Part shown: piece by piece, positions 29-22,700 of the stretch
Layout: each line of letters begins with the position of its first letter
How positions within the stretch are numbered: position 1 is the first letter of the stretch
DNA from: a virus
Strand: one strand, 5' to 3'
DNA: 33,291 nucleotides
Virus record (IMG/VR): IMGVR_UViG_3300027839_000041
Coordinates: 1 to 33,291 of that record
Notes under the pieces: model-generated
What the model was told of the DNA's origin: nothing
The model's input: the letters and a program-made list of their open reading frames with translations, nothing else
Database searches by the model: none
Translations under genes and position numbers: made by a program

Positions 29-670
29 TTAGCTGGTGCAGGTAGAACGAATTGAAGCAATCCAACTCGCAGAAGGTGTACCTGAAGCCGATTTTAGTCG
101 AAGCAGCGTAATTTGAAGGTCGCCAGAGTTAAAGATTTGTGTCTCTCCAGCAAGCAATGTGAATGTGACATTAGTATCAGCATTCAATTCACCAGTGATG
201 GTGATAGAACCGTCAAGGTTCTGAACTTGCAAGAAGCTCGCAGGGCCACCGTGTGTTGTAACAAAGTCAATTACTGTGCCGGTGAAGGCAGTCGTAAGAG
301 TCTCGGTAGCACCAGCAGCATACGTGTTTTCTCCGGGAACGTCACTGTAAATCGAGCCATCATCTGTTACAGTTTCGATGAAAGCAAACTCTGCGGCAAC
401 TTGTGGGAAAGCAAATCGCTTCCAGTAATTGCAATCAGTGAAAGTTTCACCGTCTTTTAGAAGACGATAACTTGCGTTTGGTCCAGCGGCGAACATTTGA
501 CGCTGCAACGAAGCAGCACCAGAAGCGGCATGATCTACTCCAAACGCATCGCCCAGATGACCGTAAGTAGCTGGCGATGAACCAGAACCAGCGGCTAGAG
601 GGTGAGTCGTTGGATCAAGATCCAATTGCCCTTGTGTCAGATGTTGAAGTCTTACCTTAAATACAGACAT
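29..670 (-). CDS. Putative virion protein, tandem paralogue A
   Basis: Encodes 213 aa with no family I recognise. It is a clear paralogue of the next gene (773-1417). Both begin MSVFKVRLQH and share FAAGP, the segment DGETFTDCNYWK, FAFPQVA and a closing SWIA-I-S-C segment. The protein is soluble-looking, without signal peptide or membrane segments, and rich in Thr, Gly and Ala, as many phage structural or decoration proteins are; the structural role is inferred from composition and from the neighbouring tail and fibre genes. The start is supported by GGAG eight or nine bases upstream of the ATG. The leader is almost identical to that of its twin and contains a late-promoter-like box at 717-724. 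It could equally be a small fibre or head decoration protein. Confidence 0.7.
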   Translation of the reverse strand: MSVFKVRLQHLTQGQLDLDPTTHPLAAGSGSSPATYGHLGDAFGVDHAASGAASLQRQMFAAGPNASYRLLKDGETFTDCNYWKRFAFPQVAAEFAFIETVTDDGSIYSDVPGENTYAAGATETLTTAFTGTVIDFVTTHGGPASFLQVQNLDGSITITGELNADTNVTFTLLAGETQIFNSGDLQITLLRLKSASGTPSASWIASIRSTCTS

Positions 671-3944: not shown

Positions 3945-5411
3945 ATGTACCAAGGCAAAAATTATATCAACGGAGAATGGCGGGATGTAACTGAATCGTT
4001 TGAAACAGTTAACCCCGCCACAGAAGAAGTTTATGGAACTTTTCCTAACAGAGTCGAAGAAGCAGGACTGGCAGTAAAAGCCGCTCGTAAATCTTTTGAT
4101 TCATGGAGAAAAGAAAGTCGAGTTAGAAGAGCAGAGTATTTTGATGTTCTTGCACAACTCATTAAGCGTGATCACGATAAGCTTAAAGATGCTATATCGA
4201 TAGAGACAGGAAAGAATCTTAATGAGTCACATGCAGAAGTCATTGAAGCTCTCCATATGTGCCAGTTCGCCGCTGCTTCTGGACGAGAGGCATTCGGAAC
4301 ATGTGTGGCGTCCGAACTTCCTACGAAGGACGCATATGTCATTAGGAAGCCTAGAGGGGTTGTTGCTGTTATCTCTCCTTGGAACTTTCCTCTTGCTATC
4401 GGCTCTTTTTGGAGTTCTGCTCCTGCTCTCGTTGAGGGCAACACCGTTGTACACAAGCCATCTGAGCTTACTCCAATGGTCAACCAAATAGTCACTGAAC
4501 TTTATCATGAAGCTGGTTTCCCAGCAGGTGTTTTCAATCTTATACATGGTGAAGGTGCTGTTGGTGCTGCTCTAGTCAGAAGTGAAGTAGATGTTATTCT
4601 TTTCACGGGATCGTCAGAAGTCGGTCAGGATATTAGAACACACTGTGCGTCTACTGATTCCAAAAGAACGTGTATTGAATGCGGTTCAAAGTCAGCAACT
4701 ATTGTCTTTGATGATGGCGATATGGAATTGGCTCTTGACGCCGCTGTAGCATCTGCTTTCAAACTCTCTGGACAAAGATGTGTTTCGTCAGGACGCTTGA
4801 TTGTCCAACGTAGCATCTTTGACAAGTTTGCAGAAGAATACACCAATAGAGTGTCTGCGCTTGTTACAGGCGATCCTTTCAAAGCTCCAGCCGCTTTCTA
4901 TGGGCCGCTCATCAGCCACGAGCAAATGGACAAGGTAGAAGCTTTTAATCAACTTGTTCGTGAAGATAGCGATGCAGAAGTTCTTTTGAATGGTGGAAGA
5001 CTTGATCCTGATCCCGGATACTTCCTCACGCCGTTCGTCTATAAGTGCGAATGGGCCAGAGACAAGCCTTTCTTGTCTCAAGAGGTCTTCGGGCCTCATG
5101 TTGCGTTGATTCCTTTCGATGATCTGGACGATGCCATTAGAATTTACAATGATACAGATTATGGTCTTGCTTTAGGAATCGTCACAGATGACTTCCGTAA
5201 GCACAGAAAAATCGCTCAAGAATGTATCACTGGTATGCTTTATGTCAACGGTGGTTCAATTGCAGCAGAATCTCATATTCCATTTTCTTCATGGAAGAAG
5301 AGTGGGTATGGTGCCAGTGCTGCGGGAACTTACAAAGCTGTTACTCACAGCATGTCCATAACGGTGAACTACGAAGAAGGAAAAGTGAGTTGGGCACAAG
5401 GAATGGAGTAA
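3945..5411 (+). CDS. NAD(P)-dependent aldehyde dehydrogenase
   Basis: Encodes 488 aa, the normal length of the ALDH superfamily. The ATG at 3945 follows TGGAGG; upstream in-frame codons lack a ribosome site. Every key element is present: PWNFP (145-149), HKPSE with the cofactor Lys (171), GSSEVG (222-227), general base Glu245, nucleophile Cys279 in SGQRC, and EVFGPH near residue 385. The usual ELGGK around the base is changed to ECGSK, a small departure. The enzyme oxidises an aldehyde to the acid with NAD(P); overall it resembles the succinate-semialdehyde/ketoglutarate-semialdehyde group more than betaine aldehyde enzymes, but the substrate is uncertain. It is an intact metabolic gene in a phage, between a glycosyltransferase and a UDP-sugar dehydrogenase, suggesting a role in sugar or surface chemistry, or in rerouting host metabolism. 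Confidence 0.93.
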   Translation: MYQGKNYINGEWRDVTESFETVNPATEEVYGTFPNRVEEAGLAVKAARKSFDSWRKESRVRRAEYFDVLAQLIKRDHDKLKDAISIETGKNLNESHAEVIEALHMCQFAAASGREAFGTCVASELPTKDAYVIRKPRGVVAVISPWNFPLAIGSFWSSAPALVEGNTVVHKPSELTPMVNQIVTELYHEAGFPAGVFNLIHGEGAVGAALVRSEVDVILFTGSSEVGQDIRTHCASTDSKRTCIECGSKSATIVFDDGDMELALDAAVASAFKLSGQRCVSSGRLIVQRSIFDKFAEEYTNRVSALVTGDPFKAPAAFYGPLISHEQMDKVEAFNQLVREDSDAEVLLNGGRLDPDPGYFLTPFVYKCEWARDKPFLSQEVFGPHVALIPFDDLDDAIRIYNDTDYGLALGIVTDDFRKHRKIAQECITGMLYVNGGSIAAESHIPFSSWKKSGYGASAAGTYKAVTHSMSITVNYEEGKVSWAQGME

Positions 5412-5611
5412 GCATACATACTCGTATGCCTGATACTCCATTTGGAATGCCGATATTCAATCCACATGATTTTCGTATCTGCGGTTGGGTGGAATCAGAA
5501 GATGTGATTCTTATTCACCGTGGAGACGAATATCATTATACGGATTTTTTAGGCGTAATTTTTCTTGATAAGCCGCCAAAAGATTTTGATTGGAGAAAGG
5601 AAGGATTCTAG
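5390..5611 (+). CDS. Small protein with W-x-K-E-G-F C-terminus (first of three)
   Basis: Encodes 73 aa from a TTG at 5390, preceded by GAAGGA at a good distance and overlapping the aldehyde dehydrogenase stop by 22 bases. An ATG at 5426 would give 61 aa but has no ribosome site. TTG starts are used by the next two genes too. The protein is small and aromatic-rich (FNPHDFRICGW) and ends DWRKEGF. I do not recognise the body. The C-terminal heptapeptide recurs, with variation, in the next two genes and in 16344-16805. AGGAGG just after the stop serves the next gene. Confidence 0.6.
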   Translation: MGTRNGVSIHTRMPDTPFGMPIFNPHDFRICGWVESEDVILIHRGDEYHYTDFLGVIFLDKPPKDFDWRKEGF

Positions 5612-5619
5612 GAGGATAA

Positions 5620-6087
5620 TTGGAAATACATTTTACAGAACATGAAGATTTGATGAGAAGGCAAACTGTTATATCAGCATACACTCAAGTTGGTAACAGG
5701 CGTGTCCAATCTCGAATGTATGTTTCGTTAGATAACTACCGTCAAAATTACATAGACTCAGCATACCAATTGCTTAAAGATGAAGTGAGGCAAAGAGCTT
5801 TGACAGAAATGAGGTCTCAACAGCATTACTCAAATAGAGATGCTGTGAGGGATTCAGACGATGCAAATGATGCACGTGAAGCTGCTATGACAGCATTGTT
5901 TGGATTACCGGCTCGTAGAGTTGATGCCATGCCAGTTCCATTATATGATCTTCAAAATGGTCGTCCTGTGTTTCCGTTAGACCTAAACAGAGGGGCTTGG
6001 ATAGAGAATTACAGATATTCAGAAAACAGTGGTGGCCGGGCGAAAATGACCAAGGATAAAGTGAACTGGTTGAAGGAGGGATTTTGA
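5620..6087 (+). CDS. Small hypothetical protein with W-L-K-E-G-F C-terminus (second of three)
   Basis: Encodes 155 aa from a TTG at 5620, just after AGGAGG (5610-5615). The first two thirds are helical and charged (for example YIDSAYQLLKDEVRQRALTE), with a DAND-AREAA stretch; the last third is Pro/Arg-rich. I do not recognise the family. It ends VNWLKEGF, related to the ends of the genes on both sides. The codons for KEGF (AAGGAGGGATTT) also form the ribosome site of the next gene, whose TTG start overlaps this stop (TTGA). The tight packing suggests the three small genes are translated in concert. Confidence 0.65.
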   Translation: MEIHFTEHEDLMRRQTVISAYTQVGNRRVQSRMYVSLDNYRQNYIDSAYQLLKDEVRQRALTEMRSQQHYSNRDAVRDSDDANDAREAAMTALFGLPARRVDAMPVPLYDLQNGRPVFPLDLNRGAWIENYRYSENSGGRAKMTKDKVNWLKEGF

Positions 6088-6272
6088 CAGATCGTATATT
6101 GAAAGCAACATGGTCTCTTGAAGCCCAACAAGATTTAGAAGCGTGGCACGGTATTGCAATTGAAGAACTAACCCGTAATATAATAATAGACATGGATCGG
6201 GACTTCATACGATGGGCTAACATGGCGACTGTTGTTGAATCAACAGTCAATTGGAAGAAAGAAGGATTTTAA
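6084..6272 (+). CDS. Small protein resembling a T4 gp23 capsid segment; W-K-K-E-G-F C-terminus
   Basis: Encodes 62 aa from a TTG at 6084 within the upstream stop (TTGA), served by AAGGAGG. Residues 3-50 (DRILKATWSLEAQQDLEAWH, then an acidic helix and MDRDFIRWANMA) align by eye with the segment of T4 major capsid protein gp23 that reads SRQLKAAYSIELAQDLRAVH and continues to EINREVVDWIN, apart from a short gap. This is recalled, not searched. The true capsid protein is about 500 aa, so this is either a capsid fragment turned into its own gene or a small head-related protein. It ends VNWKKEGF, and GAAGGA inside those codons is the ribosome site for the UDP-glucose dehydrogenase start at 6274. 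Confidence 0.6.
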   Translation: MTDRILKATWSLEAQQDLEAWHGIAIEELTRNIIIDMDRDFIRWANMATVVESTVNWKKEGF

Positions 6273-6273
6273 G

Positions 6274-7152
6274 ATGGATACAATCGGAATCATAGGACAA
6301 GGTTTTGTTGGGACAGCTATTTTCGAGGGAATGAAACACGCTTTCGAAATTTGGGCTTATGACATCAAAACAGGAGTCACAGGATGGATGGGCGGCAAGG
6401 GATTTGAGACAAGCACAGGATCAAGTGTTGAAAGTGGATTTAAGCAAATTCTTGCTAAATGCGACATCATTTTTGTTTGCCTTCCAACGCCCATGAACCC
6501 AGATGGAACGTGTAATACAAAAATTGTGGAAGATGCTGTCAACATGCTTGATGAACTCAATCCCGGCGATCACAAAGTTATCGTGATCAAATCTACTGTG
6601 CCACCGGGAACTACAGAAGGTCTTAATAAAACTTCTGGAGATTGGGTTTGCTTCAACCCTGAGTTCCTTACAGAGCGTACTTCTGTTGAGGATTTCAAGA
6701 ACCAAGACAGAATCATCATAGGTGGACCACGAGAAGGTACTAACGTACTTAAAGCAATGTATGAAAAAGCATACCCAAACGTACCTGTCACTAAGACATC
6801 ATCAACCATTGCAGAACTCGTAAAGTACACGACTAATTGTTTTCTTGCTACAAAAGTTGCATTTGCTAACGAGGTTGCTCAAGTCTGTGATTCTTTAGAT
6901 GAAGATTATGACAAGGTTGTGGAATACGCCACTAAGGACAATCGACTGGGCAACTCACATTGGTCTGTTCCGGGGCCTGATGGCAAGAAAGGGTTTGGCG
7001 GCAGTTGTTTTCCAAAAGACCTTAACGCATTCATACAGATGGCAGGAGACCTTGATGTGTATTGTCATACTTTGCAAGGGGCATGGCAAACTAATTGTAA
7101 GGTTCGTCCAGAAAAAGATTGGGAACAACTTAAAGGCAGAGCGGTTACTTAA
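6274..7152 (+). CDS. UDP-glucose/GDP-mannose dehydrogenase family, short form
   Basis: Encodes 292 aa from the ATG at 6274, nine bases after GAAGGA. Residues 4-13 form the NAD-binding Rossmann turn (IGIIGQGFVG). Later family motifs are all present: CLPTPMNPDG (69-78), KSTVPPGTT (106-114), NPEFL with catalytic Glu130, Lys184 and Asn188, and FGGSCFPKDL with the thioester-forming Cys245. By family it oxidises a nucleotide hexose such as UDP-glucose to the uronic acid in two NAD-dependent steps. Cellular enzymes are about 390-450 aa and end in a UDP-binding domain; this one stops about 45 residues after the catalytic Cys, so most of that domain is missing. It may act in a compact dimer, use a different donor, or be a decayed copy. 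The sequence is intact and tightly packed in the operon, arguing for function. Confidence 0.88.
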   Translation: MDTIGIIGQGFVGTAIFEGMKHAFEIWAYDIKTGVTGWMGGKGFETSTGSSVESGFKQILAKCDIIFVCLPTPMNPDGTCNTKIVEDAVNMLDELNPGDHKVIVIKSTVPPGTTEGLNKTSGDWVCFNPEFLTERTSVEDFKNQDRIIIGGPREGTNVLKAMYEKAYPNVPVTKTSSTIAELVKYTTNCFLATKVAFANEVAQVCDSLDEDYDKVVEYATKDNRLGNSHWSVPGPDGKKGFGGSCFPKDLNAFIQMAGDLDVYCHTLQGAWQTNCKVRPEKDWEQLKGRAVT

Positions 7153-9139: not shown

Positions 9140-11008
9140 TCAATTAGAAATACATGGAGTTATCATAACGCAATTTCTGCCATCAGCATCTTTGTTTAGA
9201 ACCTCGTCCATGGTTATTTTAACTTCTATTGGACTACCTTTCCATACCATTTCCACTTCTGGATTTTCTGGCATGATAAGTGGAATTCCAATGTTCTCTG
9301 GTATGATAAGAGGGATTCCTTCAGGTGCTTCTAATACTATCCTGTCAGGAATTCCACTTGCGTCAATAATGATCTTTTCAGGAATAGGCTCTGGCATTTC
9401 TACCAAGATTCTTGTAGGAATTTCTTTTTCCATTTCAAGCTTGATTGACACACCTTCTGTATCAACCTTGATGCCTTTGCCTTTGTAGACCAAACCAATG
9501 TCTTCTGGCAAATCATCTCCATTAAGTCTAATAGAGTTTGGTATCGGAGTTTCTGGGCCATGAATAACGATGTCTGTCGGAATTTTGGCTTCTGTACAAT
9601 CTAATTTGATGGTGCGAGGCATGTCCGAAGAGTCCACTCTAACATTTGGCATTTTAGGAGGAATGATTCTTATCTCTTCTGGAATTCCCACTGATTCATA
9701 TTCGACTTTCATTGTTTGAGAGGCTTCAAATAAATCTGCAAACTCTTCTCCGAAGTCTCTTACAATTGCAGGATCGGCTGCAAACATCTCTGGAGTCTTA
9801 GCCACTTTAGCCAATGTTAAAGCAACTTCCATTTCTGGAGGAGCACCCCAATCAACTTCCAGTCTTGGAAGGTCTGCCGCATCTAATGTAAGAGCGATGT
9901 TAGATTGGGTGATAACCACAATTGTAGGAGGAATTGGTGGATCAATGATAATTGTAGGAGGCACTGGCGGATCGAACACAACAATTGAAGGAATGATGAT
10001 AGGGCCACCTTCAATTGTTACAATGCTTTGCAAAATTTGTATTGGATTGTTCGAAGTTATAGTCACATTGCTGACCATGTTAATGTCTGGGCCAACAATT
10101 ACAGATGGTAATGGGCCAATTTGTCCTTCTAATGAGATACAAGGAAATATCAATGGCGGCAAGTTGATGTCCACTTCTGGTACATCACAAGGCACAAAAG
10201 TAAAATCTGGAAATTCAGGAATTTCTGGAATTGGTATATCAAAAGACGCCAACACAAGTGCTGGTGGTTCAAGTGGGTTTATACGATTAACTGGAGTTTG
10301 AATTATTTCACAATTGTCATTTATCACTGTGATTACTGGATCAATTTGTGCATTTACAGCATAACGATGAGTTCCCTCCAGAATAGCAGTGGTTGCTCCA
10401 TCCCCGAAACTAAGTGTGATAATTGAAATCAATCCTGTTGGTGCTCCACCAGTTCCTTGTATTTCAATAAGGTATTCTGCAAGCTTGCCTGTCACTGGAT
10501 CGTCTTCAATGATATTGAAAGTAAAAACTATATCAGGGCAAGTGAAGTCATCAAAGATAATTTTTAGTCCTTCAAGGTTTCTAATTCTCCAGTCTAAGGT
10601 GGCCTGTCTTGGATCAAAATTAAAGCCAATGAAATTTTCCGTATTCAAAATCCCATCTACAAGTTGGTTGTGATGCTCGGCAACTACAAAACTTCTAATC
10701 CAAGTTCCTTTTTTGTTTAATTTTGTATCTTCGCCACCTAAATTTCTTGCGCACTTTTTTAGTTTGTTTACTTTTCCGTTGACATCTTTTTCAACTGTTT
10801 CGTAATAGAGAAGTTCTCCTTCAATGTTGGCGAATCCATTATCAGCCCATATTTCAATTGAAGTTGAAGATACAGGAACAATTTCTATTTCTTGTGACCA
10901 AGGCACATTGTCTACACAAATTCTTGCTTCTGTTGTATTGTGAACCAAATACAACTCATGATCTGTATCAATGGCTTTTGGGAAAACTGGAACTGGAGGA
11001 AATGTCAT
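9140..11008 (-). CDS. PKD-type virion fibre/adhesin with repetitive C-terminus
   Basis: Encodes 622 aa. The N-terminal part (about 15-145) matches the two paralogues at 11655 and 13950: an LVHN opening, a GELLYYE strand, then SFVVAEHHNQLVDGILNTEN, which I take as a common virion-attachment domain. A PKD-like unit follows (LSFGDGATTAILEGTHRY, about 200-217). From about 240 the chain becomes a Pro/Ile/Val-rich series: DPPVPPTIIIDPPIPPTIVV, then many short units such as IPEKIIIDASGIPDRIVLEA. These look like a beta solenoid or extended spike stalk. Only a few cysteines, two of them near the C-terminus. ATG overlaps the HNH endonuclease stop (ATGA), and AGGTAGG within that gene is its ribosome site. 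Confidence 0.75.
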   Translation of the reverse strand: MTFPPVPVFPKAIDTDHELYLVHNTTEARICVDNVPWSQEIEIVPVSSTSIEIWADNGFANIEGELLYYETVEKDVNGKVNKLKKCARNLGGEDTKLNKKGTWIRSFVVAEHHNQLVDGILNTENFIGFNFDPRQATLDWRIRNLEGLKIIFDDFTCPDIVFTFNIIEDDPVTGKLAEYLIEIQGTGGAPTGLISIITLSFGDGATTAILEGTHRYAVNAQIDPVITVINDNCEIIQTPVNRINPLEPPALVLASFDIPIPEIPEFPDFTFVPCDVPEVDINLPPLIFPCISLEGQIGPLPSVIVGPDINMVSNVTITSNNPIQILQSIVTIEGGPIIIPSIVVFDPPVPPTIIIDPPIPPTIVVITQSNIALTLDAADLPRLEVDWGAPPEMEVALTLAKVAKTPEMFAADPAIVRDFGEEFADLFEASQTMKVEYESVGIPEEIRIIPPKMPNVRVDSSDMPRTIKLDCTEAKIPTDIVIHGPETPIPNSIRLNGDDLPEDIGLVYKGKGIKVDTEGVSIKLEMEKEIPTRILVEMPEPIPEKIIIDASGIPDRIVLEAPEGIPLIIPENIGIPLIMPENPEVEMVWKGSPIEVKITMDEVLNKDADGRNCVMITPCISN

Positions 11009-11622
11009 TTGGTCCTACCTTTTGCACACCAATTTGATGTTTGTGTGTGACAGTTAGGACACACAAACATCAAATTGTTTGATTTGTTGTTTAAGCAGTC
11101 TCCATCAATATGATGTACTTGCAAAGTGATTGGAGATCCCAACCAACTTTCCGAAACTAAACAGTCCTCTGCTTCACATATGTATTTTCTGCCGATTTCT
11201 ATTAAGCATCTTCTTAGTATATATGGTGTAGTTCTAGTAGAACCTTCTGGTTTAACCACTAAAACTTCTTTGGGAGTTTTGCATTTGGTTCTTGGGAAAA
11301 TATGTTTTTTGAAATGAGAACAGTCTATTCCAAATTCTTTTATTTTCTGCTTAACAAAAAACTGTGACCCGCCTCCGGGTTTAATCCTTAAATGCTTAGA
11401 AACTTCTGACATTGAATTGCTTTTATTAACCACAGGTTCGAGAATTTCCTTAGTGTATTTTGGTATCTTGTAATGTGATGTGTCAATTCCAAACTCTTCA
11501 ACGAGATTCTTTCCTTTTCTCCAACTGTTTCCATCTGTTTTCCCATATACTTCTCGAATGAAGCTATTAAAAGAACTTGTCTCTTTGGCGATTTTGTCCA
11601 ATTCTTGTTTTGTGTATTTCAT
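11005..11622 (-). CDS. HNH homing endonuclease, free-standing
   Basis: Encodes 205 aa from the ATG at 11622; a GTG at 11676 would lengthen it into the upstream gene. The N-terminal 110 residues hold two similar units ending EEFGIDTSHY and KEFGIDCSHF, small DNA-binding modules typical of phage HNH enzymes. The C-terminus (about 147-193) has the zinc-stabilised HNH core: a C-x4-C pair, LQVHHIDGDCLNN and FVCPNCHTQT. The expected activity is a sequence-specific nick or double-strand cut in a related phage genome, spreading the gene by repair. It lies between two paralogous fibre genes and overlaps the second by ATGA, supplying its ribosome site, so it is neatly inserted without breaking a reading frame. 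No intron is seen. Confidence 0.88.
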   Translation of the reverse strand: MKYTKQELDKIAKETSSFNSFIREVYGKTDGNSWRKGKNLVEEFGIDTSHYKIPKYTKEILEPVVNKSNSMSEVSKHLRIKPGGGSQFFVKQKIKEFGIDCSHFKKHIFPRTKCKTPKEVLVVKPEGSTRTTPYILRRCLIEIGRKYICEAEDCLVSESWLGSPITLQVHHIDGDCLNNKSNNLMFVCPNCHTQTSNWCAKGRTK

Positions 11623-11654
11623 ACAATAAGAGAGTAATAGATGGCAAGAAATCG

Positions 11655-13940
11655 TCAGTAAATTCCTGCTATCCACTGCTCACCGGAAGGTCTACTTCCC
11701 ATTGATGCAAAGGTTAAGTCTGTTTCGTTAAATTTCAGTAAAGCATTTGGACTATAATCAAAACTTAAATATGCACGTTTATCACTGTCTGATACCAATA
11801 ACATTGTATTGTCTGGATTATCAAATCCACTAACAGACGTGTCTTGAAGACCACGATAAAGTAATGAGTTAGCTCCGGGGCCACCAGAACTCCATGTTAA
11901 ATCTACATCGTTAAACTTAGACACAGATCCCGAGTTGTTTAAGAAGAATATTCCTTCACTCATGTCAACAAGCTCTCCCTCTAGTTTTGTTGGACCTTGT
12001 ATGTCTTGCATCTTTCTGATATTTTCAAATGGAGAACCTACACTTCCTTCTGTACGATAGAAGCTCTTAATTCTAAAGAATGGTCCGACGCCATCGTTTC
12101 TGGCAATGTATCCTGATAAATCTTTCCAAGCTGTACGATACACGCTAAAGTGTCCGTTGGTTGGATCACCATCCACATCATAAATAGCCGTGTTTTGCTC
12201 AAGCTCATTAGCTCCATTGAGATAATTGTCTGCTGACAGAAGAGCACTTGAAACAGTTAACCCAGTTAGCTCCAAGTCATCTTTTTGTACGTTTGTAAAA
12301 GATGTGTTAGGAGAATGTGAAGAAATAGCTCCAAAAACGAATGCAGATGTGCTTCCTGTGTTTATATTGGCCCAGTTCCACTGTCTTGTTATAGAAGGTC
12401 TTGTGATGTACGTGTTGTTAAATCCAACATATTCCACAACTCTAATTAACTCTGAACTAGCTGGATCAGCAGCCCCTCTTCCACTTGCCCAATAAAGAAG
12501 AGATGCACCACCGCCTCCAGAGGTTAGAGTTCCTCTTTTGGCAAATCCTGTGTTCTTTTTGAACTCTCTTTTTTGTCTTACTTCGTCTGGCATACCTGTA
12601 AGAAAAGAATCATTTCTGGATACTGCAAGGCTGCTTGATGGAGTCAACTTAAATGTTTCGCTAATCAGTCCAAATTCATATGATCTTGCACTTGTTCCTG
12701 CATCATCGAATAACCACATCCACATGTTTGTGTTTTCAATGATGTCAATTGAATCTTCGTAGGTTGTAATTCGGTAAGCACCAAACTCTGTGTCTACTCT
12801 TAGTCTAAGATCAAATATTCCACCAATGGAATATGCAGCTTTAGTATGTGCTGTGTTAGGATGCTGTAAGTCATCTCCAAGATTCCATGTATAAGTTTCT
12901 ACAGGATCAATTGGATTTCCCATTCCATCTAATTGTTCTCCAGAGAAGCTTGTTCCCGGAGTAGAAGGGTTTTCTCCAGATTCTATTTCAATTTGAATCA
13001 ATGCGTTAATTGGAGAACGAATTTTTGGAACTGTTGAAAATGGACCGTTGGGAGGAACTCCGGGAGTTGCGTCTTGTGTTGATGTATTCTCGATAAAACG
13101 AACAATGGCATCGTCTGGAGCTTGAACTCTAGCATTGATGAAGTCGGGAAGTATAATGGTGTCTGAACCAAAATCATTTTCTACAGTTAAAGACACATCA
13201 TAAACTCCCGGTTGATGATAAGTCTTCTTTACTTTTCCGCCATCTTCATCAAGCACCAGCACTTCAACTTGATCAGTAGGCACGAAATCACTTACACTAA
13301 TTGTGCTGAAGTTGGAAATTATAGATGTAGTTTGATCTCCAAAATCCCATGTGAGTTTTGTAGTTCCTGAGTTCCCATCTGTTCCGAGACGAAAGCTCAT
13401 GTCTCTAAATTCAACTTCTAAAGGAATGTTTCCAATTCTTCTATCAGAAGTAAACCATGCTTTGGGAACAAGAACCAGATTTCTCAAGAAGTTGATTCTT
13501 CCTTCTAATGTTGGGCCGAAGGGCACCACATCAGTAGTTCCTTTGATCCCAACGAATTTCTCTATAGCAATCAAAGAGTCTTTAATGTGATTGTGGTGGC
13601 GTGCTGTGACATTTATTGTCACGTTGGTTATTCTCTTCAGTTTTTGTGTGTCTTCAAATCCTTCTATGATATCCAAATCTGAAAAAACCAATGTTGTGAT
13701 GTCAAATGATCCATAATGAAAGGACAAAGCACGTTTATCAACATCGCTGCATTGTTCTGTTAAGGTGATGATTCCTGATGCTGGCATTAAACCAGCCACA
13801 AGAACTTCTCCATCCGCTTCTATTGTTTTATCTCCGGGGTTGTAGTCTTTGGATAATCTTAATCTAAGCGCATCATGAACCAAAAATAGATTTTCATCAT
13901 CATCAAATACGTCAGGGTAATTGGACGCTGTAGGAATCAT
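11655..13940 (-). CDS. Large PKD-domain virion fibre/adhesin
   Basis: Encodes 761 aa. The N-terminal domain (about 1-155) is shared with the proteins at 9140 and 13950 (LFLVHD opening, then TARHHNHIKDSLIAIEKFVG). Two PKD domains follow: one near 165-270 with LTWDFGDQTTS and YHQPGVYDVSLTVEN, the other near 280-400 with YTWNLGDDLQHP and GGIFDLRLRVDTEFGAYR. The remaining 350 residues are beta-rich, with repeating elements such as FNDVDLTW and FNETDLTF that could form a propeller or receptor-binding head. PKD domains are Ig-like and often bind polysaccharide or act as spacers, so a host-recognition fibre is the likely role. AAGGAG six bases before the ATG supports the start. Confidence 0.75.
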   Translation of the reverse strand: MIPTASNYPDVFDDDENLFLVHDALRLRLSKDYNPGDKTIEADGEVLVAGLMPASGIITLTEQCSDVDKRALSFHYGSFDITTLVFSDLDIIEGFEDTQKLKRITNVTINVTARHHNHIKDSLIAIEKFVGIKGTTDVVPFGPTLEGRINFLRNLVLVPKAWFTSDRRIGNIPLEVEFRDMSFRLGTDGNSGTTKLTWDFGDQTTSIISNFSTISVSDFVPTDQVEVLVLDEDGGKVKKTYHQPGVYDVSLTVENDFGSDTIILPDFINARVQAPDDAIVRFIENTSTQDATPGVPPNGPFSTVPKIRSPINALIQIEIESGENPSTPGTSFSGEQLDGMGNPIDPVETYTWNLGDDLQHPNTAHTKAAYSIGGIFDLRLRVDTEFGAYRITTYEDSIDIIENTNMWMWLFDDAGTSARSYEFGLISETFKLTPSSSLAVSRNDSFLTGMPDEVRQKREFKKNTGFAKRGTLTSGGGGASLLYWASGRGAADPASSELIRVVEYVGFNNTYITRPSITRQWNWANINTGSTSAFVFGAISSHSPNTSFTNVQKDDLELTGLTVSSALLSADNYLNGANELEQNTAIYDVDGDPTNGHFSVYRTAWKDLSGYIARNDGVGPFFRIKSFYRTEGSVGSPFENIRKMQDIQGPTKLEGELVDMSEGIFFLNNSGSVSKFNDVDLTWSSGGPGANSLLYRGLQDTSVSGFDNPDNTMLLVSDSDKRAYLSFDYSPNALLKFNETDLTFASMGSRPSGEQWIAGIY

Positions 13941-15686: not shown

Positions 15687-15737
15687 TATTCCTCCGATTT
15701 GGGATTATGTTGTGTCTTGCATAAAGGAGTGAAAATT

Positions 15738-16355
15738 ATGGGACTTTTAGATGGTGCTTGGGGTTATTTGTCAGGTCCAATGGAATATGTTGCTGATCAT
15801 GGTGTTGAATGGCGTCGAAAATTCACACGTTTGGTGTATGAAGCTGAACTTGATGTTGCTTTAATTGATCCGACAGACAAGCCGGGCGGCAAAGACATCA
15901 AGATGGGCGAAGACAAAGAAACGCAAGTTGCTTTGCAAGCCAATGGTAAGTTTAAGGAATTACAACAATATGTAGGAAAATACAGAAGATTTGACCTACG
16001 ATTTGTTGATCAATCTGATTTTTCAGTTGCAGTGATAGACCCCACTGTCCCACAGTGGGGAACTGGCAATGAAGTCTACATGGGGGAAGATCAACATAAA
16101 CCTGCATTCTTCATCTGTGAAGGTGGTTTGTACAATCTTCCTCGCTGGTTATTTGACGTTATTGAAAAGATCACCGAGGATGACCCTAATAAGGCTCTCA
16201 GTGAAACCAACGTCTATGAGTCGGTGGAAGATGTCATTGCAGAATTGGTGCTCTTAGACAGCGGACAGAAGCCTCTCAGCGATGAATGGGTTCTAGTCAG
16301 GCGTGAGATTGAGCGTAGGGCCGAAGAGAACAAGAAAAAATACTCAAAACCCTAA
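15738..16355 (+). CDS. Unknown protein with internal repeat; lone plus-strand gene
   Basis: Encodes 205 aa from the ATG at 15738, nine bases after AAAGGAG; this decides against the longer frame from 15699. The protein holds two related units: VALIDPTDKPGGKDIKMGED and VAVIDPTVPQWGTGNEVYMG, about 65 residues apart, so the first two thirds probably arose by duplication. The C-terminal part is helical and charged. No family recognised. It is the only plus-strand gene within the structural cluster and its end overlaps 16344-16805 by 12 bases, so it may be separately regulated. A very stable hairpin (16040-16060) sits inside the second repeat. Confidence 0.6.
   Translation: MGLLDGAWGYLSGPMEYVADHGVEWRRKFTRLVYEAELDVALIDPTDKPGGKDIKMGEDKETQVALQANGKFKELQQYVGKYRRFDLRFVDQSDFSVAVIDPTVPQWGTGNEVYMGEDQHKPAFFICEGGLYNLPRWLFDVIEKITEDDPNKALSETNVYESVEDVIAELVLLDSGQKPLSDEWVLVRREIERRAEENKKKYSKP
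16040..16060 (+). repeat. Strong intragenic hairpin
   Basis: A perfect 9-bp stem (16040-16048 with 16052-16060), mostly G-C, closes a 3-base CCC loop within the gene at 15738. It is the most stable short palindrome I found here. It has no U-tract; it could slow the ribosome or polymerase, or act on either strand where two transcripts converge. Confidence 0.85.
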
Positions 16356-16805
16356 TTGCTTCCAATCTAATTTTTGCATTGGAGGCAATTGTCTGGGATG
16401 ACGGGTAACAGTTATCCTTGGCACAGAAGCATCTCTAAATCTCCAAGTGGCTTCAAGTCTGACAGGCTCGTCTTCATGTGCAGAGTAAGACATGCTTACA
16501 AGTGTTGTATCGTGATATTCCACCGAGTGGCCTGTGCCTAGACCTACTTTAATTGTAGGTCTGGGATTTATTGGCACAGCAACATTTGGACTAACATGAT
16601 GTATTGCTGTTTCTATTAGCTCATTCACTTCTGGAAATGTAAAATGCAAATCTCCAAATCTCATTTGTTGAACCGCCAGCGGCGGCTCCATTCCTGATAT
16701 TTCTGCTTCCCATTCTAATTCAAATGATTCAACTGGAAGTCTTTCTGTGATAGCAGTTTCTTCCTGAAACATTTGAAAGGTTAAATCAAAACCTGCCAAA
16801 GTCAT
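16344..16805 (-). CDS. Structural-looking protein ending D-W-K-Q-L-G-F
   Basis: Encodes 153 aa, beta-rich, without membrane segments. Features such as FELEWEAEISG and RITVTRHPRQLPPMQKLDWK suggest a small virion component; possibly a tail-tube-like or baseplate adaptor, but I recognise no family. Its last seven residues, DWKQLGF, match the C-terminal motif of the three small genes at 5390-6272, although this gene has no co-directional neighbour needing a ribosome site there. The ATG overlaps the stop of 16802-17335 (ATGA). The 3' end overlaps the opposing gene by 12 bases. Confidence 0.6.
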   Translation of the reverse strand: MTLAGFDLTFQMFQEETAITERLPVESFELEWEAEISGMEPPLAVQQMRFGDLHFTFPEVNELIETAIHHVSPNVAVPINPRPTIKVGLGTGHSVEYHDTTLVSMSYSAHEDEPVRLEATWRFRDASVPRITVTRHPRQLPPMQKLDWKQLGF

Positions 16806-17349: not shown

Positions 17350-18129
17350 TTAGACAAGCGAGATGTCATAATCGACTTTTATGATATCATCATCTGTGAT
17401 AGCCGTTGACAATTCGAATGCGCCGTTGGTGGAATCAGATGTGAAAGCAATCAATGTCCATGGATCATCAACAAGCGGACCCGGAATATAAACGCTATCA
17501 TCTTCAAAGATTCTGACTCCATTGATTACAATTCTTAAAGACTCATCAATGTATGCAGAGGCAACAGAGTTGACTTTGTAATTGATGTAGTCTGGAGTCA
17601 CCAGATTGACGTGTACCGGGGTTTTTCCATAGTTATGCTGGTGAGCAGCACTGGCCGGGAACGTCATATGAAATTTAAGGATATCTGGTGCTTCGATAGA
17701 GGGAGTAATTGTACTCGACGGTTCAATTTTAACCGTGCCACTATCGAATGTAAGTAGACTACTACCATCTGAGTTTATGCGCAAGGTCAAATCTGTTGCT
17801 TCATCAGCAACCAAGTCTACTTTGGCCGATTGTGCTGTTGACATTCTTACAAATGCTGATCCATCTGTGTGATCTTCAATGTTGTGTAATGCCGTATCAA
17901 TAGCAGTTGCTTTAAGACTTCCATCTTGCTCTATTGATTGATTAAGACGATTTGCTACAGAACCGGCTGTGCCAATAGCGTCTCGCATTTCTTCAAGAAC
18001 ATCGTCTAAGGCCAAGTTAATGAGATTTTGGCGAGTGATAATGTTCTTTAACGGTAGATTGTCTATCTCCCAATGATACGGATCATTGGGTTGATAGAAC
18101 ACTTCTGGGATTAGTTCAATACGTGGCAA
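17350..18129 (-). CDS. Virion fibre/baseplate-attached structural protein
   Basis: Encodes 259 aa. The N-terminus has YHWEIDNLPLKNIITRQNLI, a pattern seen at the N-termini of phage fibre or baseplate proteins that mount on the baseplate; the remainder is beta-rich with HQHNYGKTPVHVN and a C-terminal run of short strands. It starts with TTG at 18129, six bases after AAGGAG; that ribosome site lies inside the LAGLIDADG endonuclease coding region, with which it overlaps by 19 bases. A tail role fits its place between baseplate and fibre genes. Confidence 0.65.
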   Translation of the reverse strand: MPRIELIPEVFYQPNDPYHWEIDNLPLKNIITRQNLINLALDDVLEEMRDAIGTAGSVANRLNQSIEQDGSLKATAIDTALHNIEDHTDGSAFVRMSTAQSAKVDLVADEATDLTLRINSDGSSLLTFDSGTVKIEPSSTITPSIEAPDILKFHMTFPASAAHQHNYGKTPVHVNLVTPDYINYKVNSVASAYIDESLRIVINGVRIFEDDSVYIPGPLVDDPWTLIAFTSDSTNGAFELSTAITDDDIIKVDYDISLV

Positions 18130-19202
18130 TGGTTCTCCTTCAGAACACGAGATACTGTGCTCTGATTGATATTTAGTCTTTCAGCAATAGCTTTTTGGAA
18201 AACCCCATCTTCCTTTAACAGAACAATTTGGGACTTAGTTTCCTTTGTGAGACGAGGCTTACGTTCCACATTTATCTTCTTTCCAAGATGAGACCAACGA
18301 TCACCAGAAAGTATTACAGAAATATTGGCTTGTGATATGTCAAATTTCTTAGCAATCTTCTTCTGTAGCCACCCTTTGTCTCGCAGCTTGAAAATTTGTT
18401 TGATATTCGCTTCTGTAAGCTTGGACAAAGAATGTGTTTCTCCTTGGTGGGGTTTCTTGTCGTAAGTCTCTGTGTCAACCTTGTACTTAAAGCAGTCCCA
18501 CTCAATGTGTGGTTTGATCATTTCCATAAAGTCAAAGTAATGATCTCTGCCAATGTAAATTTTGTATTGGTCTTTCTTGCGTGCTTTTTTCTTGTGGCTT
18601 TTGATTCCGAGGTCTTTGTCGAGTCTTTCTATAAGGAAATCAATTTCTTCAACTGTAAACCCTTGTGTGTTCAACTCAATATTGGCATCTTTTGGATTTG
18701 CTGATCCATCATCCATGTGCCACACACAAAGTGTGAGCGGAGTTAATTTTACATCTCGTGGGACTATTTTGGTTCTCTTCACTGTCCTTTCAATAAGTTC
18801 CATCTTATACCATCGTTCATCCACTTCATTCCAAATTTCTTCCATATGAGTTGTGAAAGTGTAGCGATGATAAGTCTTTCCTCCTACACCCTTAAATGAC
18901 ATCGGTTTAACACTTGACGAAAAATCTCCGAACATCTTCATGTGCCAATCCATGTATGTTTGTTTGTCGTCACCTCTGTGATCTAATTTTGATTGTGCTT
19001 TTTGAAACTTTTTGTTTGAAGTTTTAAGACTATTTTCAAACATTTCTTTAACACCAACATCTTTAAGCACTGTCGTTGTTCCTTCATTGATTATCCTTGT
19101 GGCTATTCGATGCAAGAAATCATTATGCTTGTTCTTGGTCCAAATTGTTGCATCTCCAAGAAGAGACCCATCAATCACTTGTTTCTGTTCGTTTGTAAAC
19201 AT
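18111..19202 (-). CDS. LAGLIDADG homing endonuclease with two C-terminal HTH units
   Basis: Encodes 363 aa. The two active-site helices are visible: QVIDGSLLGDAT (8-19) and TLCVWHMDDGS (157-167), the latter with the metal-binding acidic residues. The region to about 245 is the double-domain LAGLIDADG fold. Two helix-turn-helix units follow, at about 258-305 (KIAKKFDISQANISVILSGD) and 317-356 (AIAERLNINQSTVSRVLK), likely to fix target specificity or repress its own gene. It stands free between two structural genes. It has its own ribosome site (AAGGAG) and a plausible promoter (19227-19256). Its 3' end supplies the ribosome site of 17350-18129 and overlaps it by 19 bases. Confidence 0.88.
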   Translation of the reverse strand: MFTNEQKQVIDGSLLGDATIWTKNKHNDFLHRIATRIINEGTTTVLKDVGVKEMFENSLKTSNKKFQKAQSKLDHRGDDKQTYMDWHMKMFGDFSSSVKPMSFKGVGGKTYHRYTFTTHMEEIWNEVDERWYKMELIERTVKRTKIVPRDVKLTPLTLCVWHMDDGSANPKDANIELNTQGFTVEEIDFLIERLDKDLGIKSHKKKARKKDQYKIYIGRDHYFDFMEMIKPHIEWDCFKYKVDTETYDKKPHQGETHSLSKLTEANIKQIFKLRDKGWLQKKIAKKFDISQANISVILSGDRWSHLGKKINVERKPRLTKETKSQIVLLKEDGVFQKAIAERLNINQSTVSRVLKENHCHVLN

Positions 19203-19226
19203 TACATCTCCTTTTTAAGATACTTT

Positions 19227-19256
19227 ATTATAGTAAAAAGAATATGTAAATTACAA
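19227..19256 (-). promoter_or_regulatory. Candidate promoter of the LAGLIDADG gene
   Basis: Minus strand: TTGTAA (19251-19256), 18-base spacer, TATAAT (19227-19232), about 25 bases upstream of the ATG at 19202. A perfect -10 in an AT-rich 85-base gap supports an independent host-type promoter. Not demonstrated. Confidence 0.4.
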
Positions 19257-19287
19257 TTAGTTTTGTATTTTTGGATAAATTTGTGAA

Positions 19288-19761
19288 TTACACAAAGTTT
19301 AACCTCCAGTTGAAACTGATCTGCATGTCTGCCGTCTTATTCAGGTCTGGAAAAGTTGTCATACTGAATAAATCGCCATTTGCCATTTGCAGGGCCATCT
19401 CATTCAATGTCAGCCCAACACCTTCACTAAACAGAATAACGGACGTGAAGATGACCTGTGCAGCCACAGAGGTATCTGAATTAGCCAACGCTGGCTTAGA
19501 TACTTGAGTGACACCAAAAAGACCATTTCTTCCAGCATTTACTACTTTCTTGACCCCGCCAGTTGTTCCTGCATCTCCAAAAATCATTCTGGTGACATAG
19601 AAGTCAAAGCTGCTGCCAATCTGGTTGGCGAGACCATTGGCAAGTGCAAGACGACCAGTTGTTAACACTGTGTTGTGAACTGTTATCACTTCCCCATCGC
19701 CATCTTTGTATTCAATGCAGATATCTACTTCCCCTTGGGGTTTTACTGATTCTTTAATCAT
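19288..19761 (-). CDS. Putative baseplate or fibre-associated structural protein
   Basis: Encodes 157 aa. It is beta-rich, with TTGRLALANGLANQIG, VTRMIFGDAGTTGG and LFSEGVGLTLNEMALQMANG. This resembles small virion proteins that sit between baseplate wedge and fibre genes, and the last stretch (FNWRLNFV) is a strand. The ATG overlaps the stop of the wedge gene (ATGA) with GAAGGTG upstream, so it is translated with the baseplate operon. No specific family assigned. Confidence 0.6.
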   Translation of the reverse strand: MIKESVKPQGEVDICIEYKDGDGEVITVHNTVLTTGRLALANGLANQIGSSFDFYVTRMIFGDAGTTGGVKKVVNAGRNGLFGVTQVSKPALANSDTSVAAQVIFTSVILFSEGVGLTLNEMALQMANGDLFSMTTFPDLNKTADMQISFNWRLNFV

Positions 19762-22700
19762 ATTTCACCTTCTTGAGTCTCTCCATCTAATGTTTCTATC
19801 ACGAATGAGATGCTTTCTTCAGCAGAAACATTCTCTTCCATTCCACTTCCCGGATTTGTTGACAAAGCAACAATTGCAGTGTTTTGGTCTATTTGATCGA
19901 ACACTTCTCTAATAATCACGTCTTTACCATCACGATCTAAATGATCAAAAACTGTAAATCCAACATTCATTGAATCTTTGGTAAACTGAACCAGCGAATA
20001 AGCCACCGCAGTACCTCCTGCAATCAATGTTGTCCAAGTTTGTTCTTTACCAGCTAAAACTACATTTATTCCATCCCATTCTTCAATTCTATAAAAATCA
20101 TTACCTATCTTAAACATGAAGCTTTCTTTGAATCTGTCTTCATCTGTAAGAGGGGCTACTGGATTAGTTCCGTTAATGATATTGAATTCTTGTTCGTGGT
20201 CGCTGAATGTAGTTAAATGCAACCCTTTGTAACCAAATAGTCCAGTTGCTTTATCCACTAATTTTCTTCTTGTATCTATGCTAGTTCCAACAACATCGCC
20301 ATTCGTCCATTCAGCGATCCATAATTTGTCTGGATCTTGGAATTTTAGTATTTCATAGTCCAATCCATCATTGTCATAATGTAGGAAGTCGCCAGCTAAA
20401 ATGAATTTATCTCTATCCACTGCAAGATCAGGTGCTTTAAGGTTTACAAACCCACGTCGTGTCACATCTAAATCTCCAGTTGTTCCTGAATCTATTGTTG
20501 CATCAAGATCATTGAGAAGAATATAAGTGATTCCGGTTGTGTCTGTAGTGGGGAAAGTGCTTCTGCTTTCCAAAACAAGAACTCCATCTTGCACGTCTTC
20601 TATCTCATAAGCTGTGGAGTCGAATCCCGGAATTAGCACCTTCCACGCTCCACCAGTATAATCTGGAGTATGAGTGGAATCCCACTGAGACTTTACTCCT
20701 AAAGATGAAAAGTCAACACTACTGTCTGAGAACTCAATCAAGTCATCTTGAATGATATCTGCAATGCTTTGCTTGAATAGTATGTTCCATAAATTGAATG
20801 TAAAAGGAGATTCGTTTAATGGTTCAATGGCACCGCCGCTTAGTCTTGCAACGTGTGGATTACCATCTAGCCTATTGTTTGTTTCTCCCAAGGTGTACGT
20901 GCCAGCGTTTGGAGAAGGTGCAAGAACTTCTAAAATGTGATTGAACACAGCAATACCCAATCCATCAAGTTCTATGTCTGGGGAAATGAAAGCAACGTGA
21001 TCGTTATACCCAGTTCCTAACTTCCCAGAAAGCACTGTGGTCTTGGTTGCCAAATCTTCTCTATCAATTACAAATGATTGGCCGGGCAATCCACGATCCA
21101 TTATTCTGTTAAAGAAAGGATTGGATTGGCCGGATAAAATGTATTGTGTAAAGTCTATGTTGACCAACACTTCGATATCTTCTGTGGGAGATTGAACAAA
21201 TTCATTAACCTCACCAGAGAAGTTGATTGAGTGAAGTTGAGCATGAAATGGCATGTATTCATCAAGAATATCTTGTGCTTCTATCAATCTGTCATTATTT
21301 AACTCTTCAATTCCAACATCAACCATGTAGCTGCTACTTATACAAGCACCACATGGATCAAGGAAATCACGATTTATTTGACACGCATCAAATGATGGGC
21401 GAGTGCTTCCATTGTATTCTTCCATATTGTAGATGTTTTCTGAATATGGGAATTCAGTTCTAATGAACCCAAATACAATGGGATCAGCAAAAGGATGTCT
21501 TACAGGTATAAGAACATCAAACAATGGATCTTCCTCCTCGATCAATCTTACATTCCAATTTTTAGGAGGATACTTTTGACTTCCTTCATCTCTTTGATCT
21601 TGAAGAGGCAATGAAAGAATATAATCTTGAAGAGTTTGTTCTGAGGTATCGGGAACTTCTTTGTATTCGTATTTAACTCTAAGAACATCTCCTTTGATTA
21701 TGGTAAGAGGGCTTGATAGTTGCTCTCCAATCCATGTCATTTTTACAATACAGTCTTCTACTGAAAAACTGACATAATCTTTGTTCAAAACAGTGTATGT
21801 GCTAGAGCCTTCTTCCCTTAAGTATAATGCAAAATTTGCATCGTCAATTGGAAGAACTATATCGTCTTTCTCTAGTTGGAATACTGTGTCTGCTGTACTG
21901 TCAACATCAAAAGATTCTTCCCATGTATAAGGAGATGTTAATTGCCAGAATTGAGTGTATTTATTTAACTCCATTCCGCACATTGCGTAAGCGTCTTCCA
22001 GTCCTTCAAGAGTTCCCTTTTTCTTAAACACAGGTATGGCTTCTTTGATTTGACGACGCCAAAGCGTAGGATCGGAAGACCTTAACCTAACATCAAACAA
22101 ATTAGACAAATATGCGAGCATCGATTCATGTAAAGCATTTGAATCAAACAAGTCAATGATTTGATTTGTTAGGTCTTCAAGGAAAGTAAATCCCTTGGCA
22201 ACAGCTTGATTCAGTTTATCAGTAGAGTCTGGAGTTAGGTCTCCTTCACATATGACGTTTTTATACATCTCTGGAAGGTATCTCTCCAGTAGTATCTCGT
22301 ATTTGTCTGTTGCTGTAACATGTGTTGGAATTGATGTCACTGCACGTGGATCACCATCAATTTTGAATGGCAAATGAGCCGACAAGCTGCTTCCTGCTGG
22401 AAGCGGAGTCCAAGTCCAGCAGATGAAGTAGTCTCCTTCACGGACCTTTCCCATTGGATGCCACTCATATGTAAAGTGACCAAATTGTGGATTGCCATCA
22501 GCGTCTTCTGGAACTAAATCCAAGTACGCATTAGTTGTATCTGTAGAAAGCCAAGCTGGAAACTCATATGTCCCTACAATTTCTACAGGTGTTCTTTCTT
22601 TGTAAAAGAACTTGCTGACTTGTGTTGTGGCAGCTAGATTTGCTTGAGCTTGATCCAAGAGTTTTTTGTTAGCGACTGTAGGGTCTCCACAAAACGCTTC

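Follow-up and report, generated by a model that had tools for sequence, protein, structure and literature searches.

Why should four proteins of a single phage, whose bodies differ, end in almost the same seven residues? The question arises in a 33,291-nt IMG/VR fragment (IMGVR_UViG_3300027839_000041; "the window" is this whole stretch), which belongs to a T4-like jumbo phage. Its minus strand encodes baseplate wedge, hub and tape-measure-like proteins, and relatives are known from contigs of up to 459 and 595 kb. A sequence-only reading of the window had pointed out four C-terminal copies of the motif, and we found all four (Table 1). Among the window's open frames only these four end in W-x3-GF-stop, and by chance about 33 genes would yield four ends of this kind with P ~2e-13, given the residue frequencies found in sister phages that lack the tag. 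The first protein, which had been taken to start at 5390, probably starts at ATG 5426, since its orthologue in the near relative G017 has a stop shortly upstream of that ATG.

Table 1. Tagged genes, tags and adjoining genes of the window, and stretches of the gp23 major capsid protein (MCP) found in tagged bodies
Feature	Position	Strand	Detail
Tagged protein 1	5426..5611	+	61 aa, probable ATG start 5426, ends FDWRKEGF
Tag DWRKEGF + stop	5588..5611	+	AAGGAAGG; doubles as ribosome site for TTG 5620
Tagged protein 2	5620..6087	+	155 aa, TTG start, ends VNWLKEGF
Tag NWLKEGF + stop	6064..6087	+	AAGGAGGG; ribosome site of TTG 6084
Tagged protein 3	6084..6272	+	62 aa; gp23 MCP fragment (~residues 262-304) plus tag VNWKKEGF
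Tag NWKKEGF + stop	6249..6272	+	AAGAAAGAAGG; likely ribosome site of UDP-glucose dehydrogenase, ATG 6274
UDP-glucose dehydrogenase	6274..7152	+	tagged genes directly upstream in all close homologues (at least 69% identity)
Convergent gene	15735..16355	+	overlaps stop region of tagged 16344-16805 gene by 12 nt
Tagged protein 4	16344..16805	-	153 aa, ends LDWKQLGF; predicted tail-tube/Hcp fold
Tag DWKQLGF + stop	16344..16367	-	no gene start behind
Tagged body with MCP piece	MCP residues 2-69		L096
Tagged bodies with MCP piece	MCP residues 53-108		G007, G022
Tagged body with MCP piece	MCP residues ~164-238		G002
Tagged bodies with MCP piece	MCP residues 245-313		window 6084-6272, G007, G016, G017, G022, L110, L111, L169
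Tagged bodies with MCP piece	MCP residues 417-475		G022, L165

Purifying selection acts on all four tagged genes (dN/dS 0.03-0.36), and within the tags the window and G017 differ at synonymous positions only. Protein 1, identical to its G017 orthologue at 58/59 residues (dN/dS ~0.03), had no match in family searches. Protein 2 (dN/dS ~0.33 against G017) has a tail part, VPLYDL...YRYSENSGGRA, that by eye only resembles the MCP stretch ISIPL...FRYSSNKGA, and gave no significant match to the lineage MCP profile. Protein 3 matched PF07068 above the cut-off (E 1.6e-6, 28.2 bits against 24.4), phrog_138 (E 2.5e-7) and the lineage MCP profile, and as it covers ~58 of the 376 positions of the PF07068 profile it is a fragment, not a full-length HK97-type capsid protein. 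The four bodies had been described as different and unrelated, a description to be amended in that the third of them is a piece of gp23. Elsewhere in the window, a LAGLIDADG homing endonuclease with a helix-turn-helix (PF03161; 18111-19202, minus strand) lies between the baseplate-region genes 17350-18129 and 19288-19761, an HNH endonuclease-like ORF (11005-11676, minus strand) lies between two large genes, one of them with PKD domains, and the minus-strand ORFs 29-670 and 773-1417 encode paralogous MSVFKVRLQH... proteins, of which 29-670 had no Pfam match.

The sequence-only reading had proposed searching relatives for the C-terminal motif, and had named confinement to the four carriers, or free variation away from ribosome sites, as outcomes that would speak against it; neither was found. 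We scanned the complete records from which related loci came for TGG-N9-GGN-TTY-TRR and then checked the open frames, which gave about 55 distinct tagged ORFs in relatives and a catalogue of 59 entries, part of which came from a search pattern containing KE. Some of the pattern matches were chance, being very short frames without a start. In an unbiased count over called genes, W(-6) G(-2) F(-1) stood out as one of the most over-represented C-terminal triplets: 6 of 713 genes of the 459-kb phage G002 carry it (0.057 expected, P 4e-11), as do 4 of 231 in G022 (0.022 expected) and a single gene in G001, while the same count gave zero in the sister phages G004 and G005. G002 (L292-L314) has a second over-represented ending, D-T-N, in 8 genes against 0.27 expected, five of the eight having E at -6. 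Possible degenerate tags were seen at L090:15400-15672 (KTCWEEGF, its Trp shifted by one residue towards the end), which precedes a sulfotransferase-like gene, and at L108:4411-4743 (KYDLKEGF, which lacks the Trp). Cellular use of the tag was rejected: WKKEGF stood at ORF ends in 4 of 80 cellular loci sampled and the [DN]W form in none of them, and recurring spirochaete matches were, where readable, a repeated element and not C-termini. Genes present in G001, G002 and G022 and absent from G004 and G005 offered no convincing candidate partner by phylogenetic profile. Literature searches found no description of such a C-terminal tag, and the motif class is real and, as far as those searches reach, apparently undescribed.

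Since the KEG codons resemble a ribosome site, the motif had been suspected to be in part a translation signal, with Trp and the final Phe left unexplained. We divided 54 tags into those with an ORF start codon at the stop (coupled, 29) and those with none (uncoupled, 25). Glu at -3 was present in 28 of the 29 coupled tags and in 8 of the 25 uncoupled ones (P 3e-7), and Lys at -4 in 22/29 and 8/25, respectively; in the subset found by a KE-free pattern, the Glu contrast was 7/8 against 1/12 (P 8e-4). This dependence on the following start codon identifies K-E as a Shine-Dalgarno sequence, and stop/start overlaps of the form TGATG or TAATG are frequent behind the tags. In contrast, D/N at -7 (25/29 coupled, 21/25 uncoupled) and a hydrophobic residue (PHI) at -8 (23/29 and 22/25) did not differ between the classes, so that ribosome binding or translational coupling fails as the only explanation: W, G, F, D/N and PHI are independent of a downstream start codon. 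The suspicion was borne out on both counts, and W, G and F are kept without a following gene in other phages too, as had been remarked of the fourth gene of the window. The tags draw on all four codons for Gly and on both for Phe, and EGF endings without Trp are rare at tag loci (six). Because PHI-[DN]-W-x3-G-F is kept equally with or without a following gene, and W, G and F are invariant in orthologues, this core is selected as protein; the motif consists of two layers, a K-E ribosome site and a separate protein-level core, PHI-[DN]-W-x3-G-F-COOH. T4 gp23 carries a W-x3-GF-like stretch; an origin of the tag within the MCP was rejected, as the MCPs of this lineage have no such stretch.

Tag-stripped proteins were compared with ~2,100 genes from five jumbo genomes, and the match that kept recurring was the gp23 major capsid protein. 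The lineage MCP profile finds 15 of the 59 catalogue entries, ~13 without near-duplicates, and these fragments of ~25-75 residues come from several parts of the protein (Table 1), the full-length MCP genes being separate and untagged. The head had been suggested as a possible partner of the tag, a suggestion that gains some support from the many tagged proteins with MCP pieces. In G022, three adjacent tagged ORFs carry N-terminal, central and C-terminal MCP pieces, present besides a complete MCP. Short untagged MCP pieces occur in W01, G003, L020 and L165, so fragmentation of gp23 is a wider habit of the clade for which the tag is not required. Separate small ORFs with gp23 pieces, tagged or not, were noted in L142 (G022) at 18930-19881, L134, L125:38012-38314, L128 and L020:15153-15818; the G022 ORF 19525-19881 holds two MCP segments in permuted order, and a tagged, MCP-piece-like ORF of L417 ending at 4148 has the tandem repeat NSRCNSRCNSRCNSRC directly before NWKEEGF. 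Among the other tagged bodies are the repeat protein of L106, families associated with sulfotransferase or WbqC genes, and four proteins with N-terminal membrane helices. PHROGs, NCBIfam and PADLOC gave nothing informative on tagged proteins besides the MCP match.

The 16344-16805 gene has syntenic orthologues in many relatives, directly behind a glycosyltransferase-like gene, and is missing from that place in G005 and G004, both tagless genomes; because most sampled contigs are incomplete, its co-occurrence with the tag rests on few genomes. The orthologues evolve fast: their bodies differ in length and mostly share 16-31% identity, and aligning 11 or 12 of them leaves the W, G and F of the tag as the only invariant columns. 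One orthologue (L022) seemed tagless, and LDWRRCGF* lies in the neighbouring frame after a poly-A run; this frameshift (L022 18099-18589) is a sequencing error or marks a pseudogene. In relatives the overlap with the convergent gene ranges from 4 to 40 nt or is lacking, and it cannot account for the motif; antisense constraint from 15735-16355 was rejected. The convergent gene itself is conserved and by eye deoxyribosyltransferase-like (YLSGPMEYVADHG), its long form occurring mostly with the tagged gene and its short form mostly without it. AlphaFold models of two different 16344-16805 orthologues (pLDDT 71.5 and 77.4) were compared with the PDB by Foldseek, and the top matches of both were almost all tail-tube/Hcp proteins (TM ~0.5), among them T4 gp19, the phage 812 tube, Hcp1 and lambda gpV; a tail-tube/Hcp fold is therefore predicted for this protein. 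Profile comparison with hhalign detected no homology to the lineage's own gp19-type tube proteins (probability 5%), which are encoded apart from this gene, in G002 beside a sheath-like gene; the predicted tail-tube likeness is thus a statement about fold only, and the protein was not detected as a gp19 homologue.

Tagged genes are found preferentially in operons that encode UDP-glucose dehydrogenase, sulfotransferase and glycosyltransferase enzymes. At every near-clade UDP-glucose dehydrogenase locus the gene is immediately preceded by tagged ORFs, which fall between it and the aldehyde dehydrogenase gene wherever both can be seen, whereas distant UDP-glucose dehydrogenases have none upstream; other tagged genes adjoin sulfotransferase, WbqC, GT9 and glycosyltransferase-like genes. 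One 28.9-kb contig, with genes for TerL, portal and a PF05065 capsid, comes from an HK97-type siphophage, and on this single contig two small tagged ORFs flank the gene for the terminase small subunit. As the tag is common to unrelated phages, its partner should be available to both and is perhaps a host protein.

Among known systems the closest likeness is found in T4, where gp43, gp55 and gp33 have near-identical, interchangeable clamp-binding C-termini and the gp55 linker is divergent (PMC2988020). Like the tag, these tails are short C-terminal hydrophobic motifs on different phage proteins, interchangeable and directed to one partner, and it is by this analogy that docking is proposed here. 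However, the T4 motif is hydrophobic and acidic and lacks W-x3-GF, and the carriers here are small accessory proteins rather than replication or transcription proteins, none of the tagged ORFs being a polymerase. Family-B polymerase (PF00136) had no match in G001, G002, G022 and G023, and the gp45 clamp (PF02916) had none over the cut-off in six genomes, a result that leaves room for a divergent or host clamp. A clamp-binding tail was rejected, neither protein having been found in the tagged genomes tested, and together with carriage by a siphophage this disfavours a replisome partner. In the bacterial SSB tail, which is acidic, a C-terminal Phe and its carboxylate anchor many partners; there one tagged protein serves many partners, whereas here many proteins share a tag that is not acidic. 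The T4 capsid targeting sequence is N-terminal and cleaved by the prohead protease, unlike the tag at the very C-terminus. In mycobacteriophages, according to Freeman 2023 as cited in PMC12619734, the C-termini of capsid and tail-tube proteins are glycosylated in virions; the likeness lies in capsid-like and tube-like proteins accompanied by sugar-nucleotide and glycosyltransferase genes, and the link in the present phages is one of gene neighbourhood alone.

The same motif is kept under selection on non-homologous bodies, as expected of a docking short linear motif. We consider that the tag is probably an interchangeable docking motif, comparable with the T4 tails, by which accessory adaptors bind one common partner; this is the best-supported reading, and an unproven one. 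The tag PHI-[Asp/Asn]-Trp-x-x-x-Gly-Phe with its free C-terminus is a protein-level short linear motif of small accessory proteins, carried in the gp23-type jumbo myovirus clade and on at least one HK97-type siphophage contig, and where the next gene follows at once the x-x-x codons also serve as its ribosome site, giving K-E. Trp, Phe and the carboxylate may anchor a C-terminal plug that docks different adaptors on one partner, and the membrane anchors, together with the pieces of gp23 and the tube-like fold, could act as addresses that direct this partner to the membrane or to virions under assembly. As different phage lineages carry the tag, its partner may be host-encoded.

A special case of docking, in which the partner is itself a virion protein, is a tag for assembly or packaging that, alone or with the gp23 pieces and the tube-like fold, places proteins in the head or tail. 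It is possible but improbable: the 15 catalogue entries with gp23 pieces, the predicted tail-tube/Hcp fold of a conserved member encoded in the tail operon and the two tags beside the siphophage's terminase small-subunit gene all suit it, yet phages can dispense with the tail-locus gene, which G005 and G004 lack, the siphophage does not share gp23, several tagged genes lie in metabolic operons far from virion genes, and membrane-anchored members fit poorly. We regard it as unlikely that the tag is a C-terminal degron or protease-adaptor tail handing the protein, with whatever its body binds (for example a competing phage's capsid or tail proteins or a capsid-sensing defence protein), to a host AAA+ protease. 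Such a tail would fit a free C-terminal hydrophobic motif on small mimics of structural proteins, and bacterial systems that sense tail-tube protein (DSR2; PMC11087589) as well as prophage proteins that block virion assembly (PMC10884400) exist; however, the tested bodies are under purifying selection and PADLOC had no match among tagged proteins.

Slightly less likely again is a recombined end cassette, a piece of W-x-K-E-G-F-stop DNA with its ribosome site copied between genes and having little or no protein function, as the sequence-only reading had also suggested. Two or three tagged ORFs in a row with near-identical ends (in the window and in G022) and the frequency of TGATG or TAATG overlaps speak for copying, but no gene begins behind 25 of the 54 tags, W, G and F stay constant where x-x-x, the codons and the stop codon change, and orthologues keep W/G/F through near-complete turnover of the body. 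Synonymous divergence and conservation in uncoupled genes show that the protein sequence is what selection keeps; the cassette is largely refuted as the sole explanation, while recombination of this kind may have carried the tag from gene to gene. A pure ribosome-site artefact is very improbable: it would account for the strong tie of K-E to a start codon behind the tag, but not for Trp, Gly-Phe, D/N and the hydrophobic -8 residue being equally conserved without a following gene, nor for the rarity of Trp-less EGF endings, and for W, G and F the coupled/uncoupled comparison rejects it.

If the tag is a docking motif, the outcome of docking may, we infer, be virion targeting, modification or degradation. 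It is a rather doubtful further idea that capsid or tail-tube pieces or look-alikes, joined to a universal plug, steer the partner (a protease, a modifying enzyme or a host factor) onto capsid or tail proteins, modifying the phage's own virions or sabotaging competing phages or capsid- and tail-sensing immune proteins. The motif PHI-[DN]-W-x3-G-F at the C-terminus is a sequence handle on a functional class of small phage proteins beyond the reach of grouping by homology, and a shared tag points to a common partner that can be tested for directly. In this clade of jumbo phages, fragments of the major capsid gene are kept as separate, tagged genes.
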